NCBI GenBank assembly: GCA_009659895.1
Contig: PUXX01000027.1
Span: 1 to 33,905, forward strand
DNA from: Campylobacterota bacterium
GTDB lineage: Bacteria > Campylobacterota > Campylobacteria > Campylobacterales > Nitratiruptoraceae
DNA: 33,905 nucleotides
Reading direction: 5' to 3'
Shown here one piece after another: positions 13,316-19,209 of this stretch (within the stretch, counting starts at the first letter, position 1; each line of letters starts with the position of its first letter). Under the pieces are notes generated by a model. The model was given only the letters and a program-made list of their open reading frames with translations. It did not search any database and was not told the origin of the DNA. The position numbers were made by a program, and so were the translations under genes.

Positions 13316-14797
13316 CTAAAGAGTCGTTGGCCAAAAACTTACGCTATTTTCTTCTATTTTGGCTTTTAGCCCCTCTATTTTTTGGTATTTGAAGGTGCCT
13401 TTTGGGGTTATGCCGCTTAGTTTGTAGATCTTGTCGGTGCCGTTGACATTTTTGTATAGAACCCAGTCGAACCTCCCATCCTTGTCCTTGTCATAGTCTC
13501 CCAGGTAGATCATATTCCAAGAATCGGGAGTGATCCTAGGAGTGATATCGACTCTTTTCCAGCCAAAAACGTTCTCTTGGGTGGGTGATGCTCCCTGAAG
13601 CTGGTAGACTTTGTGAGATGGGGTGACAAAGATCCAGTCAAATGCCTCGTCGACACCATCGAAGTCGTGTGGGGTGAACGTGCCACTTTTTTGGAAGGTT
13701 TTGGTAAGCAAGAAGAATCGCAGATCGATTCTAGAAGTATTGGTATCCACTACAAAGACCCCTCTCTCAGTAGCCAGGTAGATCAGATCTTTTGTCGGGT
13801 ATGCGGCGATATCTAGAGGCGTGCCTGTCTCGTCCAAGGAGATGGTCTGGAATAGGAGCTGCGCCTTTTGGGTAGTAGGGACAATTTTGAGATTTTGTGC
13901 TATGGAGCTATCGGTTTGATGGGAGAGGATTTGGTGGTTGTCCACGACTATCAAGCTATCATGGGTGAAGGCAAAGGTGCGGTTGAGATCGGTAGAGTCT
14001 GCGATGGCCAGGATCGGATCGTGGATAAGGTCTCTATCCAAAAGATAGATCTCATCACCATCTGTGATCCCATAGAGTCCGCCGTCATGCTCACCGGTCT
14101 TGGTGAGATAGGATCCGCCAAAGCACCAGTGCTCCTCGTCGATGACCGATACGGTCTCGATGGAGATTCCAGGTATCAAAGGGATACGCTGGGCATGGAG
14201 AGTGCCGTTCCAAAAGACCTCAAAGGCTCCGATACCTTTGTGTCCCAGGGCCATCAATCCTATGAAATAGGTGGGGGATGAAGAGATGGTGCTGATCTCT
14301 TTAGCGGGGGCTGGTGGCAAGGAAGTGGCGGTGACCGTGGGCCTGGTCGGATCTTGGAGATCGATGATGGAGACAAGATCCCTTGCGCTTGTGGGATCGT
14401 AGGAGGCCACGACGACGAAGTCATTTTCCACGGCACATGTGAGGGGGATCTGATCGAGAGATTTTTGCCCTATGGGTGTGGGGCTGGCAGGATCGCTGAT
14501 ATCCAGGATCGTGATAGTCGAAGTATCCTCAAGTCCGTGAAGGAGCAGGAGTGCGTAATTTTCCCAAAGGGCGATATCGGCTACGTTGGAGCTGGTCAAA
14601 TAGCGCCCGATCTGTTTTGGGGATAGGGGCTTGGAGATATCATAAACAATAGCTACGTGCTTCTTTGACGAAACCAGCAAAAGCGCTTTGGCAGGATCTA
14701 GAGCGATGGCGCTAGATGGGGTAGGGATGAGATGAGCCACTCTGTCGCTAGCCCATAGATGGCCTAAAAGTGTGAGGATGGTGATGAGTCGAAACAT
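13316..14797 (-). CDS. Secreted LVIVD-type beta-propeller-like protein with C-terminal tandem FDW repeats
   Basis: Signal peptide MFRLITILTLLGHLWAS; LVIVD-like units such as ITILDISDPASPTPIGQ and VSIIDLQDPTRPTV; C-terminal EAFDWIFVTPSHKVYQLQG and DYDKDKDGRFDWVLYKNVNGTDKIYKLSG. Confidence 0.75.
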   Translation of the reverse strand: MFRLITILTLLGHLWASDRVAHLIPTPSSAIALDPAKALLLVSSKKHVAIVYDISKPLSPKQIGRYLTSSNVADIALWENYALLLLHGLEDTSTITILDISDPASPTPIGQKSLDQIPLTCAVENDFVVVASYDPTSARDLVSIIDLQDPTRPTVTATSLPPAPAKEISTISSSPTYFIGLMALGHKGIGAFEVFWNGTLHAQRIPLIPGISIETVSVIDEEHWCFGGSYLTKTGEHDGGLYGITDGDEIYLLDRDLIHDPILAIADSTDLNRTFAFTHDSLIVVDNHQILSHQTDSSIAQNLKIVPTTQKAQLLFQTISLDETGTPLDIAAYPTKDLIYLATERGVFVVDTNTSRIDLRFFLLTKTFQKSGTFTPHDFDGVDEAFDWIFVTPSHKVYQLQGASPTQENVFGWKRVDITPRITPDSWNMIYLGDYDKDKDGRFDWVLYKNVNGTDKIYKLSGITPKGTFKYQKIEGLKAKIEENSVSFWPTTL

Positions 14798-14865
14798 GAG
14801 AAAGACCTTTTTTGTGGATTTGCCAGACCTTTCTCTATGATAGGACGATCGATATGAATATTGGC

Positions 14866-16071
14866 TTAAAATTTCTCTTTGAGGATCTTTTTGCCAAGCT
14901 CCACGCCGGGCTGATTGTAGGTGTCGATCCCAAAAAGAGCCCCTACGGCGGATGTGAGGAGCTGGTAGTAGATGATGAGCTCTCCTATGTTTTTGGCCTT
15001 GATGCTACCGATCTCGATGAGATCGACCGGGACTCCTTGCATCATCACCGACTCCATCGTCGCTTCACACTCTTTGTTGATAAGTTCGTTGAAGGTGTGG
15101 CCATTGACGAAGTCGGTGGACTCTAGATGGGGCAGGGAGATCTGGGGGATCTTGATATGGTTGCGAAACTCCTTGACCTTGAGGAATGTCACACTCTTAT
15201 CCAAGGGACCGTCGATGAGGAGCTGCAAGAAGGAGTGCTGATCGATCGATCCGATATGGGCGATCGGAGTGAGTCCGATCCTCTCATCTCCTTTTCTTTT
15301 ACCCAGGGACTCCCCCCAAAGCTGCTCATACCAGCGGTTGAAGTCCAAAAGCATGCTGGAGTAGGAGAAGAGGACATTCATCTTGATATCGGGATAGTGG
15401 CTGTAATAAAAGGCAGCTTTTTTTAGGATATGGTCGGCTCTGTGGGCGAAAAAGTCGATGACAAGCTTACCAGCCCCTAGCAAGAGATTTTCCGTATCGA
15501 ATCCAGCGATGGTAAGAGGCACGATCCCTACAGCGCTAAGGACCGAGAAGCGTCCTCCCACGTTGGGCGGGATGTTGTAGACGGGGACCCCTTTGTCACT
15601 GCCCAGACGCTCCAGAGGAGAGCCTGGATCGGTGATGAAGATGAGGTTGTCCTTTTGGAACTCCAGCTCAAAGTGCTTGATGGCAGCTTTGAAGATGGAG
15701 ATGGTCTCTATGGTGGTGCCGGATTTGGAGATGACGATGAAGAGGGTTTCGTTCTTTTTGATCCGTGAGAATTTGTCCTCCAGATCGATGGGGTCTGGGT
15801 TTTCCAGGAAGATGATCTCCTTGTGGTGGATACGGTGTCGAAGAAGCTCATAGATCGCCTTGGTCCCCAAGGATGAACCCCCGATACCGATGATGGCGAT
15901 CTTTTTGATATGGGGGTAGTTGGGGATGCGCTCTAAAAGTCTCATAGAGCTAAAGGGCAGATCATAATATCCCGTGACACCTCTTTGGCGCTCTAGGACC
16001 AGACTCTCAAAAGCCTTTTGCATCAAGGGCTCAAGAGCTTTGGTATCGAAGTGGAGCTCATAGCGTATCAT
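14866..16071 (-). CDS. pgi: Glucose-6-phosphate isomerase
   Basis: IIGIGGSSLGTKAIYELL, FIVISKSGTTIETI, NVGGRFSVLSAVGIVPLTIAGFD, GALFGIDTYNQPGVELGKK. Confidence 0.96.
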   Translation of the reverse strand: MIRYELHFDTKALEPLMQKAFESLVLERQRGVTGYYDLPFSSMRLLERIPNYPHIKKIAIIGIGGSSLGTKAIYELLRHRIHHKEIIFLENPDPIDLEDKFSRIKKNETLFIVISKSGTTIETISIFKAAIKHFELEFQKDNLIFITDPGSPLERLGSDKGVPVYNIPPNVGGRFSVLSAVGIVPLTIAGFDTENLLLGAGKLVIDFFAHRADHILKKAAFYYSHYPDIKMNVLFSYSSMLLDFNRWYEQLWGESLGKRKGDERIGLTPIAHIGSIDQHSFLQLLIDGPLDKSVTFLKVKEFRNHIKIPQISLPHLESTDFVNGHTFNELINKECEATMESVMMQGVPVDLIEIGSIKAKNIGELIIYYQLLTSAVGALFGIDTYNQPGVELGKKILKEKF

Positions 16072-16807
16072 CGTCGCTCCTTTGCCATTTTGGTTCGCTG
16101 TGCAATGGGGGAAAGCCCTCTAGAAGCTCATAAGGCTTAAAGGCGGTCTTGTAAGCGAACGAAGCGCATCCATTGACCCAATATCCTAGATAGATCCACC
16201 TAAGTCCCAGACGTTTTGCCAGATCTATTTGGACAAGCAAGGAGTAGATCCCCAAGGAGAGCCTCTCATAGTCTGGATCGTAATAGAAGTAGATGGAGCT
16301 GATGCCATCGTCTAGGATATCCACAAGATCGACACCGATGATCTTGTCATCTTTGATATAGAGGATCTCCTTGCCAAAGTCGTGGGCACCGACGACAAAC
16401 TCCTCATAGTAGGTCTGAAGATCCATCTCGTTGTATCTCCAGCCGCTCTTTTGCTCTTTGTATTTGTGAAATTTGTTGTAGAGCTCCACATGCTCAAGAC
16501 TCAAAGTGGGAGTATGGAGATAGATGCGGGTGTCGTTGTTGCGCTTGATGGCTCTTCGCTGACTTTTGGTGGGCTTGAAGTTTGCTACATCGATGCGAAG
16601 ACTCTTGCACTCATTGCATCCGTGGCAGATAGGGTGGAAGTAGGAGTGACCAAACCGTCGCCATCCCCTTTTGATCAGATCTGAGGCAAGCTCTTTGGTG
16701 GCGTTTGGGATGTAGCGATAGTACATCCGTGTCTTTTTGTCAGGCAGATAGGCACACTCATAGTCGAGTGTGCAAAAGTCTATGGAAAAAAGATCGTCTC
16801 GCTTCAT
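16058..16807 (-). CDS. bpt: Aspartate/glutamate leucyltransferase (arginyl-tRNA-protein transferase family)
   Basis: YRYIPNATKELASDLIKRGWRRFGHSYFHPICHGCNECKSLRIDVANFKPTKSQRRAIKRN is characteristic; overlaps pgi by 14 nt. Confidence 0.92.
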   Translation of the reverse strand: MKRDDLFSIDFCTLDYECAYLPDKKTRMYYRYIPNATKELASDLIKRGWRRFGHSYFHPICHGCNECKSLRIDVANFKPTKSQRRAIKRNNDTRIYLHTPTLSLEHVELYNKFHKYKEQKSGWRYNEMDLQTYYEEFVVGAHDFGKEILYIKDDKIIGVDLVDILDDGISSIYFYYDPDYERLSLGIYSLLVQIDLAKRLGLRWIYLGYWVNGCASFAYKTAFKPYELLEGFPPLHSEPKWQRSDDDTL

Positions 16808-16823
16808 AAGAGAGATTATAGCA

Positions 16824-17111
16824 TTAAATAGGCAGGACCCGGATATTGGGGTAGTTTAGGCGCTCTTTGAGTGTGTGCTCTATACCAAAGAGGGTCCCCG
16901 TCGTGGCGCTGGCGCATCCCACGCAGGCACCCATGTAGCGGATATAGACGTCGATGAACTCTCCATTTTCCTTGACGTCGATGATCTCCAGATTGCCTCC
17001 GTCCATGACCAGATACTGGCGGATACCCTCATCGATCGCTTTTTCGATCGCTTTGTACTTCTCCTCAAAGGGAAGATCTTTAAAACTCTGCTCTTTGACC
17101 TCTTCACTCAT
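16824..17111 (-). CDS. NifU C-terminal-domain Fe-S scaffold-like protein
   Basis: VMDGGNLEIIDVKENGEFIDVYIRYMGACVGCASATTGTLFGIEHTLKERL with CxxC; ATG at complement 17109..17111 preferred over GTG at 17117. Confidence 0.9.
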   Translation of the reverse strand: MSEEVKEQSFKDLPFEEKYKAIEKAIDEGIRQYLVMDGGNLEIIDVKENGEFIDVYIRYMGACVGCASATTGTLFGIEHTLKERLNYPNIRVLPI

Positions 17112-17199
17112 GACCACTCCTAAATAAGATAATTTTACTCCTAATTTGCGAAATACTACATCACATATCCTTAAGAAACGGTAAAAAACTCTCTCTATA

Positions 17200-17229
17200 T
17201 TCGATCGTATCGGTTCTGTTTTGATCGAA
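17200..17229. repeat. Inverted repeat TTCGATC-N16-GATCGAA in the divergent intergenic region
   Basis: Perfect 7-bp arms (17200..17206 and 17223..17229) in the longest intergenic gap of the window. Confidence 0.5.
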
Positions 17230-17316
17230 ACTTATCGCAAGTAACTAAAGCGAATGATTAATAATTTAATGCTTTTTTAATTAAAGACATTTTATACTTG
17301 GAAAAAGGAGGAGATC

Positions 17317-19209
17317 ATGAGAGCGATAAAGCATATATTTGGCTTGGTGGTGTTTGTGGTCGGTGTAGCCATGGCCCAGGTGCCCACTATCGATCCCAAT
17401 ATCGATATCATAGATATCCCCTATCCATCGCAGGACGAGTATGAGTATGTGGGAGGGTATGATACGATAGAGCCCATCACTTTCGCACTGGCCGATCAAA
17501 AGGTCTTTTTGGCCGATAGGAGGGATGGGGTCTATGTTTTGGACGTTGCGAATCCTGCATCGATCCAAAAGATCAAACTGATCCAAAGCACCTTGATGCG
17601 CAATATCAAAAAGCTCGAAGTCACTCCATATACGACAGAAGACGCGCAGAAGGTCTATACGATCTTTGGTGGATTTGAGTATGTGGAAAAGGAGGATGGT
17701 TTGGATAATTTTTATGCCGGAGTGGAGATACTTCAGGGCATTGAGCGAAAAAACATATTTGAGATTATGGAAATAAACAAAGTATTTAACTCTCTAAGTC
17801 GCGGTTTTACTGTTAAGTTTGGCGATTTCGATCTCATGGAGGTCACATATTTTCCCAATGGCGATCTTCGTTTGGCTGAGCTCTATTTGGGGCTTAACAT
17901 ATTTCATGGAAACTGGAAGCTCTTTAGCGAGCTGTATAAGGGGTTGGTCTATAAGCGTGCCGATAATAGCTATTACGCAGAACAAAAAAATATATATTTA
18001 TTTTTAACCGATAAAAATATCTCTATTATTGATGTAGAGTGTATAAAAAATGATGTTTTCGAAGACGATATCTTCGTGGTCTTACAAATTGATAGAACCG
18101 GTGGTCTATTTGTAGTGGGTGAAGATGGGAATAGGAAGTTTTTCATGCCGTTTGAGGGCATCCAAGGTATGGTGGCACAAAAACACAATGAATCCATAGG
18201 CTCCAGCCTTGCCGATCTCTTTTTGGTCAGAGCGCGGCTTTTTGTACTCACTTCCAAAGATATCTTCATCTACAATTTTGGCTACGATAGACCGACGCAA
18301 AAAAATCTCTTGAAGCTTGTTGCTAGGATACGGCTTTCGCATCCGGCTAAATCTTTTTCTATCGATGGTGATAGGCTCTATGCGGTCGAGGGAGAAGAGG
18401 GGGTGGAGGTGTTTGATATCTCCGATGTAGCTCATCCCTTTTTGAGAGGCTATATCGGCACCTACGCTACCCTGGCGCAAGGAAGCGAAGAGCTTGTCTA
18501 CATTCTCAATCCCGATACCGGACTCAAAATCTACAAAAGAGTGGGTGAGAGCTCCAGTTCGTCCAGCAGCACTTCAAGCTCTAGCAGCAGCTCGACTTCT
18601 AGCTCAAATTCGTCTAGCAGCAGCACTTCAAGTAGCGCTTCAAGCTCAAGTACCAGCTCCAGTGAGCAAAGCTCCACATCCAGCAGCTCATCTTCGGCGC
18701 AGGATCAAGTGGGAGGAGATGGTATCCTAGGCCCTGCCTTTTTGTCAGAGCTCCTTGGTGAGGAGTTCAAAGTCAATGGCTATTTCTACCATTTTGGCAA
18801 TGGGGCATTTGACTGGATCTACATCTCTTCTAGCAAAGCTTTCGTCGCAAAACTAGAGGGTATGGATGAGCAAGGCTATTTTAGATGGACCAATCTTCGA
18901 TCCCTTGTGGGTGATGTGGATCTTTACTACGAGCCGGCTGCAAGAGCGGGCATCATAGAGCTCAAAAATGTCTCCTACGAAGCTCCGGCCTATCTCAAGG
19001 CCCTCGATGGCAAGGTACTTGAGGCTGATGGATACTTTTTCAACTACGGCAACGGTGCATTCGACTGGCTCTATCTCTCCAGCTCCGGCAGACTTTTGGC
19101 CAAGCTTGAGGGTATGGATGATCGAGGCTATTTTGTCTGGACCCAGATCGAAGATCTTGTGGATTTTGAGTTTGATGGGGAGCGGTTGCGTATAGATCCC
19201 AAGGAGTAG
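17317..19209 (+). CDS. Secreted LVIVD-type protein with Ser-rich linker and two C-terminal FDW repeats
   Basis: Signal peptide MRAIKHIFGLVVFVVGVAMAQ; GVYVLDVANPASIQKI and GVEVFDISDVAHPFLRGYI LVIVD-like units; Ser-rich segment then duplicated GYFYHFGNGAFDWIYISSS... module; strong SD AAGGAGG. Confidence 0.8.
   Translation: MRAIKHIFGLVVFVVGVAMAQVPTIDPNIDIIDIPYPSQDEYEYVGGYDTIEPITFALADQKVFLADRRDGVYVLDVANPASIQKIKLIQSTLMRNIKKLEVTPYTTEDAQKVYTIFGGFEYVEKEDGLDNFYAGVEILQGIERKNIFEIMEINKVFNSLSRGFTVKFGDFDLMEVTYFPNGDLRLAELYLGLNIFHGNWKLFSELYKGLVYKRADNSYYAEQKNIYLFLTDKNISIIDVECIKNDVFEDDIFVVLQIDRTGGLFVVGEDGNRKFFMPFEGIQGMVAQKHNESIGSSLADLFLVRARLFVLTSKDIFIYNFGYDRPTQKNLLKLVARIRLSHPAKSFSIDGDRLYAVEGEEGVEVFDISDVAHPFLRGYIGTYATLAQGSEELVYILNPDTGLKIYKRVGESSSSSSSTSSSSSSSTSSSNSSSSSTSSSASSSSTSSSEQSSTSSSSSSAQDQVGGDGILGPAFLSELLGEEFKVNGYFYHFGNGAFDWIYISSSKAFVAKLEGMDEQGYFRWTNLRSLVGDVDLYYEPAARAGIIELKNVSYEAPAYLKALDGKVLEADGYFFNYGNGAFDWLYLSSSGRLLAKLEGMDDRGYFVWTQIEDLVDFEFDGERLRIDPKE
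18550..18696 (+). repeat. Serine-rich low-complexity linker (49 codons) inside the 17317..19209 CDS
   Basis: SSSSSSTSSSSSSSTSSSNSSSSSTSSSASSSSTSSSEQSSTSSSSSS encoded with a mixture of AGC/TCC/TCG/TCA/AGT/TCT codons. Confidence 0.95.
18778..18888 (+). repeat. FDW repeat unit 1 (37 codons)
   Basis: GYFYHFGNGAFDWIYISSSKAFVAKLEGMDEQGYFRW; 25/37 identical to unit 2 by hand alignment. Confidence 0.85.
19030..19140 (+). repeat. FDW repeat unit 2 (37 codons)
   Basis: GYFFNYGNGAFDWLYLSSSGRLLAKLEGMDDRGYFVW; same length as unit 1, offset 252 bp. Confidence 0.85.

Follow-up and report, generated by a model that had tools for sequence, protein, structure and literature searches.

The window analysed here, a stretch of 33,905 nucleotides, comes from a deep-sea vent bacterium of the genus Nitratiruptor (Campylobacterota); it constitutes contig C85 of the MAG, which measures 1.39 Mb and is 86% complete. 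Two genes on opposite strands, P0001 and P0002, encode proteins that each open with a hydrophobic signal peptide and end in a pair of similar units, which will be called FDW units (Table 1). Both reading frames were confirmed at their coordinates. A lipobox cysteine is found at the signal cleavage site of neither protein. The surrounding genes, identified by inspecting their translations and by scans, are unrelated housekeeping genes: pyrG, recJ, pgi, folE, tig, clpP and genes for a TAT-type FAD oxidoreductase, an arginyltransferase-like protein, a NifU-like protein and a BFD-like ferredoxin.

Table 1. Features of the two window proteins (positions in the window), and plasmids and contig that carry the secretion cassette discussed in the text.
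Feature	Position	Strand	Remark
P0001, exported protein, 493 aa: signal peptide, propeller-like body, C-terminal FDW pair	13316..14797	-	
P0001 signal peptide MFRLITILTLLGHLWAS	14747..14797	-	by inspection
P0001 LVIVD-like stretch, weak	14480..14524	-	16.1 bits (E 0.007); Pfam cutoff 20.2
P0001 FDW unit 1	13520..13696	-	profile E 5.4e-19
P0001 FDW unit 2, Asp-rich loop (DYDKDKDG)	13334..13516	-	profile E 7.6e-19
P0001 paired module, AlphaFold2 model, mostly beta	13319..13714	-	pLDDT 95.2, pTM 0.86
P0002, exported protein, 630 aa: signal peptide, body, Ser-rich linker, C-terminal FDW pair	17317..19209	+	
P0002 signal peptide MRAIKHIFGLVVFVVGVAMAQ	17317..17379	+	by inspection
P0002 LVIVD-like stretch, weak	18346..18450	+	16 bits (E 0.007), under Pfam cutoff
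P0002 Ser-rich linker, body to module	18550..18702	+	limits approximate
P0002 FDW unit 1	18763..18918	+	profile E 3.9e-21
P0002 FDW unit 2	19018..19164	+	profile E 1.9e-19
P0002 paired module, AlphaFold2 model, mostly beta, no PDB fold match	18742..19206	+	pLDDT 95.0, pTM 0.85
Cassette plasmids/contig	NZ_AP023066 1-24473 (L224); NZ_AP023064 (L225); G003:C2 (L182+L183)		

The four FDW units quoted in the preliminary description are exact, and a 15-unit profile, in which these four were themselves rows, recovers all of them at E values between 7.6e-19 and 3.9e-21, so that the repeat is no chance resemblance. The BLASTP alignment of P0001 with P0002 spans the C-terminal module (27% identity, E 0.002), and no significant similarity was detected by BLASTP outside it. 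The earlier suggestion of a paralogous exported system is therefore borne out by the signal peptides and the common module but not by the bodies, between which no paralogy is detectable. The LVIVD-like repeats reported upstream of the module amount to one weak stretch in each protein, and both stretches fall below the curated cutoff of PF08309. When the P0002 pair was used as the query, other module proteins of the same genome were matched at E values of 1.8e-11 to 1.6e-4.

Scans of the whole proteins and of 86 single units against Pfam, NCBIfam and PHROGs yielded no family for the module, and the best match of a profile search of the PDB was an endofucoidanase at E 0.36, in agreement with the earlier remark that no named function was recognised for this combination. 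AlphaFold2 models of both pairs, built on alignments of homologous pairs, are confident and mostly beta. Foldseek comparison of the two models with the PDB returned nothing at E < 0.1, and comparison of the P0001 pair with viral models likewise returned nothing at E < 0.1; TM-scores in these comparisons were mostly below 0.25. The FDW repeat constitutes a genuine domain. Its paired form has no counterpart in the curated families searched or among solved structures, but may have one among unsolved cellular folds.

The module is distributed across the whole genome from which the window comes, where the 15-unit profile makes 27 unit matches at E up to 1 in about 15 proteins. At E up to 0.001, the same profile finds 9-46 units in 12 of the 16 Nitratiruptor genomes, none in six genomes of sister genera, and one further positive genome in the sample of the order Campylobacterales. 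An 86-unit profile identifies 15 positive genomes among 399 Campylobacterales, namely the 12 Nitratiruptor genomes and G028, G318 and G377; outside the 16 Nitratiruptor genomes FDW units thus occur in 3 of 383. A phylum sample of 298 genomes contained no additional positive genome. A contig scan of named genomes found matches in Campylobacterota only, including a Sulfurovum MAG and other Campylobacterales MAGs; its patterns were narrow, and other phyla are covered only to that extent. Two scans of viral contigs gave one relative between them. The FDW module has been expanded in one genus.

The proximity of the two loci, from which the preliminary description argued, loses its weight in view of this distribution. 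Both genes lie amid unrelated housekeeping genes, and P0001 is missing from the same site in the relative G014, where the interval is empty and pgi directly follows the small upstream gene. At the P0002 neighbourhood of G003 and G014 there are proteins whose module is 42-47% identical to that of P0002 and whose body barely aligns, which shows that the module is conserved while the body changes. The LVIVD body, previously noted as part of the architecture, is one among many kinds of partner. The original observation is correct, but far too narrow.

The architecture of the module proteins can be described from 116 non-redundant proteins of the retrieved loci, a set drawn from the best matches and including orthologues of related genomes, so that the counts are descriptive. 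The module lies 11-32 residues before the C-terminus in 42 of these proteins and just behind the signal peptide in 61 (N-terminal distances being measured from where the open frame begins, which need not be the start codon); of the other 13, most are truncated at the end of a contig or locus. Two units are present in 88 proteins, one in 27 and four in one. A simple signal peptide test is passed by 87 of the 105 proteins with an intact 5' end, and several of the failures merely begin at non-ATG codons. A simple lipobox pattern occurs in only four of the 87 signal peptides; a few members may already be lipid-anchored. No other obvious anchor was found behind the C-terminal modules. In 15 of 96 cases the module is bordered by linkers rich in Ser and Thr, compared with 4 of 431 neighbouring proteins, although the search spans differ. 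The module is almost strictly terminal, usually paired, and portable among unrelated proteins that carry signal peptides. One 20 kb locus, L181 (G003:C1:1825000-1844900), contains several FDW genes including near-identical copies, which suggests recent local duplication.

The bodies to which the module is joined are diverse. The 72 proteins scanned include subtilases (6), LVIVD (5), DUF285/PARCEL (4), DUF2202 (4), RCC1 (3), CAP (3) and MtrC/F-like cytochromes (2), as well as a serpin, a PQQ propeller and a beta-helix. GH12 and M60-type domains occur in FDW proteins longer than 2000 residues, and one body resembles M23 by a weak match. LVIVD repeats exceed the cutoff in other FDW proteins (82 bits in L196, for example); this repeat belongs to the bodies and is distinct from the FDW module. 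Two FDW proteins match the NCBI 'choice-of-anchor' families B and Q, names that are given to bodies with differing anchors in differing lineages. Nine CxxCH motifs are present in two of the multiheme c-type cytochromes, which combine MtrC/MtrF-like domains with an FDW pair; one is encoded in the same genome as the window (L216 5351-7759, G000:C20) and the other at L194 2233-4476. Such a nine-heme protein is possibly a surface electron-transfer protein. Serpins stand behind an N-terminal FDW pair (loci L240-L250; for instance L204 2606-4762), and serpins with the module are present in 10 genomes. Of the 12 FDW-positive Nitratiruptor genomes, 11 give serpin matches; the four FDW-negative ones and the six sister-genus genomes give none. 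The FDW-serpin may balance the FDW subtilases.

These observations lead us to propose, tentatively and with somewhat less than even confidence, that Nitratiruptor uses the FDW pair as a portable terminal module by which exported proteins are kept at or on the outer cell surface. Retention is suggested by the terminal placement of the module, its fusion to unrelated bodies, the presence of choice-of-anchor bodies among them, the lack of other anchors and the Ser/Thr-rich linkers. The signal peptides, the predominance of exactly two units, the clustering of FDW genes with secretion and mannosylation genes on plasmids (and with the secretion genes in G377), and an exported one-unit protein of a prophage (the last two described below) were also counted in its favor. 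In the process envisaged, the protein would cross the inner membrane by means of its ordinary signal peptide, which is apparent from the sequence, and the FDW pair would then fold up as the compact, chiefly beta domain of the high-confidence models. Ca2+ may be used by some units through their Asp-rich or EF-hand-like loops, for which the evidence is weak. The folded pair would bind a component of the cell surface, for example a glycan, a receptor or a protein of the outer layer, and proteases, protease inhibitors, cytochromes and propeller proteins would thereby be displayed. In strains with a plasmid-borne type II secretion system (T2SS), at least the plasmid-encoded module proteins probably cross the outer membrane by that system, as gene clustering suggests. 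Some evidence points against retention: there are one-unit proteins and very short ones (115-130 residues) with nothing obvious to display, a few members may be held by a lipid instead, neither a receptor nor a sortase-like partner was found among neighboring genes, and a module that can occupy either end might equally be a binding domain.

The plasmids of YY09-18 and of YY08-26/YY08-13, and G003:C2, carry genes for T2SS components, among them GspD, E, F and G, together with module proteins that include a subtilase, and also encode a PMT-type protein mannosyltransferase, GtrA and a GT2. The YY09-18 plasmid (NZ_AP023066, 24.5 kb) is identical to the second contig of G005. The published description of the Nitratiruptor isolates reports plasmids of 24-35 kb, and the word 'secretion' is absent from its main text (PMC9723563). 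A secreted family of about 400 residues with the motif 'DGTGDYL..PVY', hyp400, is specific to the cassette and lies alongside the plasmid T2SS (L184 7620-8828, alignment A7), with distant forms in other Campylobacterales. Gene-neighbor clustering in search of a universal FDW partner returned solely T2SS/plasmid genes and common housekeeping genes, and no receptor or sortase-like partner was found among the neighbors of the FDW loci. The temperate Nitratiruptor phage NrS-4 (and NrS-5) encodes a 115-residue protein with a signal-like N-terminus and one FDW unit (E about 7e-20); in NrS-4 it is ORF 55 (L223 11917-12264), between the tail genes and the lysozyme.

The plasmid arrangement could also mean that the pair is a recognition tag of a particular T2SS, driving export across the outer membrane and not retention. 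Besides the joint occurrence of the T2SS, the module proteins and PMT, GtrA and GT2 on these plasmids, such a tag would agree with G377, a member of another family, in which a T2SS of the plasmid type (GspE 72% identical) is found together with a module protein. Among the two-contig or closed Nitratiruptor genomes, FDW and the T2SS are both present in two and both missing from two, and all five genomes with a close relative of hyp400 (> 380 bits) are FDW-positive. As a marker of FDW, however, hyp400 fails, its distant forms being present in genomes without FDW. The T2SS is widespread in the order, GspD exceeding the cutoff in 74 of 200 genomes, and is common there without FDW. A more distant type of T2SS occurs in the sister genera and in G012, G028 and G318, and the rest of the cassette was not found in the stretches read around it; the 27 kb second contig of G001, whose genome has no FDW, holds no cassette gene. 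Against the tag, GspD is not found over the cutoff in the FDW-positive MAGs G006, G008, G013 and G014, which are 98-99% complete; this could reflect independence from the T2SS, or a plasmid lost in binning. A T2SS as a strict requirement could not be upheld from MAGs. T2SS cargo is in general not known to carry a common tag. On balance, we consider a T2SS tag rather unlikely, though a live alternative.

A binding function of another sort has to be weighed as well. The module may be an accessory domain that binds a glycan, a mineral or other cells and mediates adhesion or targets a substrate instead of keeping the protein on the cell that produces it. Its conserved aromatic residues, predicted all-beta fold and Asp-rich loops would suit such a domain, as would the fusion to hydrolases such as the GH12 and M60-type proteins, and its ability to lie at either terminus is as compatible with a binding domain as with an anchor. 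An accessory domain would not be expected to be placed almost strictly at the termini, usually as exactly one pair, nor to be carried by serpins and cytochromes, which need no substrate targeting; we regard this alternative as doubtful. The Asp-rich or EF-hand-like loops are found by motif in 19 of 207 units, and possible use of Ca2+ by some units is a suggestion only. That FDW units derive from repeats of the FG-GAP or EF-hand type and merely complete or stabilize a propeller is very improbable: a subset of units shares D-x-D-x-D-G loops with these Ca-binding repeats, and among 86 units there are weak Pfam EF-hand matches in up to seven (best E 0.0005) and one FG-GAP_3 match (E 0.024), none of them convincing, but propellers make up a minority of the bodies, AlphaFold2 gives confident models of the module by itself, and Foldseek matches neither a propeller nor an integrin at better than E 0.1.

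The retention of exported proteins by an FDW pair would be comparable in role, though not in ancestry, to that achieved by SLH domains or by the C-terminal domains of T9SS cargo. T9SS C-terminal domains and the PEP-CTERM and GlyGly-CTERM tags are sorting tags at the ends of exported proteins. Like the FDW pair, each is one short end module found on many unrelated exported proteins of one lineage, and the likeness extends to the choice-of-anchor families among the FDW bodies. Unlike them, the FDW module is either N- or C-terminal, is usually paired, has no hydrophobic tail and matches none of them in sequence. A T9SS is not known from Campylobacterota. Surface-layer anchoring domains such as SLH are also small repeated units at either end of exported proteins, but SLH is helical and has three units, whereas the FDW module is predicted to be all-beta, has two units and gives no Pfam SLH match.

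A more far-reaching speculation, which we consider possible but rather unlikely, is that the FDW pair is the common cargo code of a plasmid-borne package for secretion, O-mannosylation and surface display in vent Campylobacterota. Proteases, a serpin inhibitor and multiheme cytochromes would then all reach the cell surface through one module, and plasmids and a prophage would spread both the machinery and its cargo. Should FDW prove to be a sorting or anchoring module common to Campylobacterota, the surface proteome of these vent bacteria could be read directly from sequence. It would include the nine-heme cytochromes, with possible electron exchange, and the set of proteases and serpin, and it would become testable whether a module that cargo proteins have in common can be used by type II secretion, a question long open.
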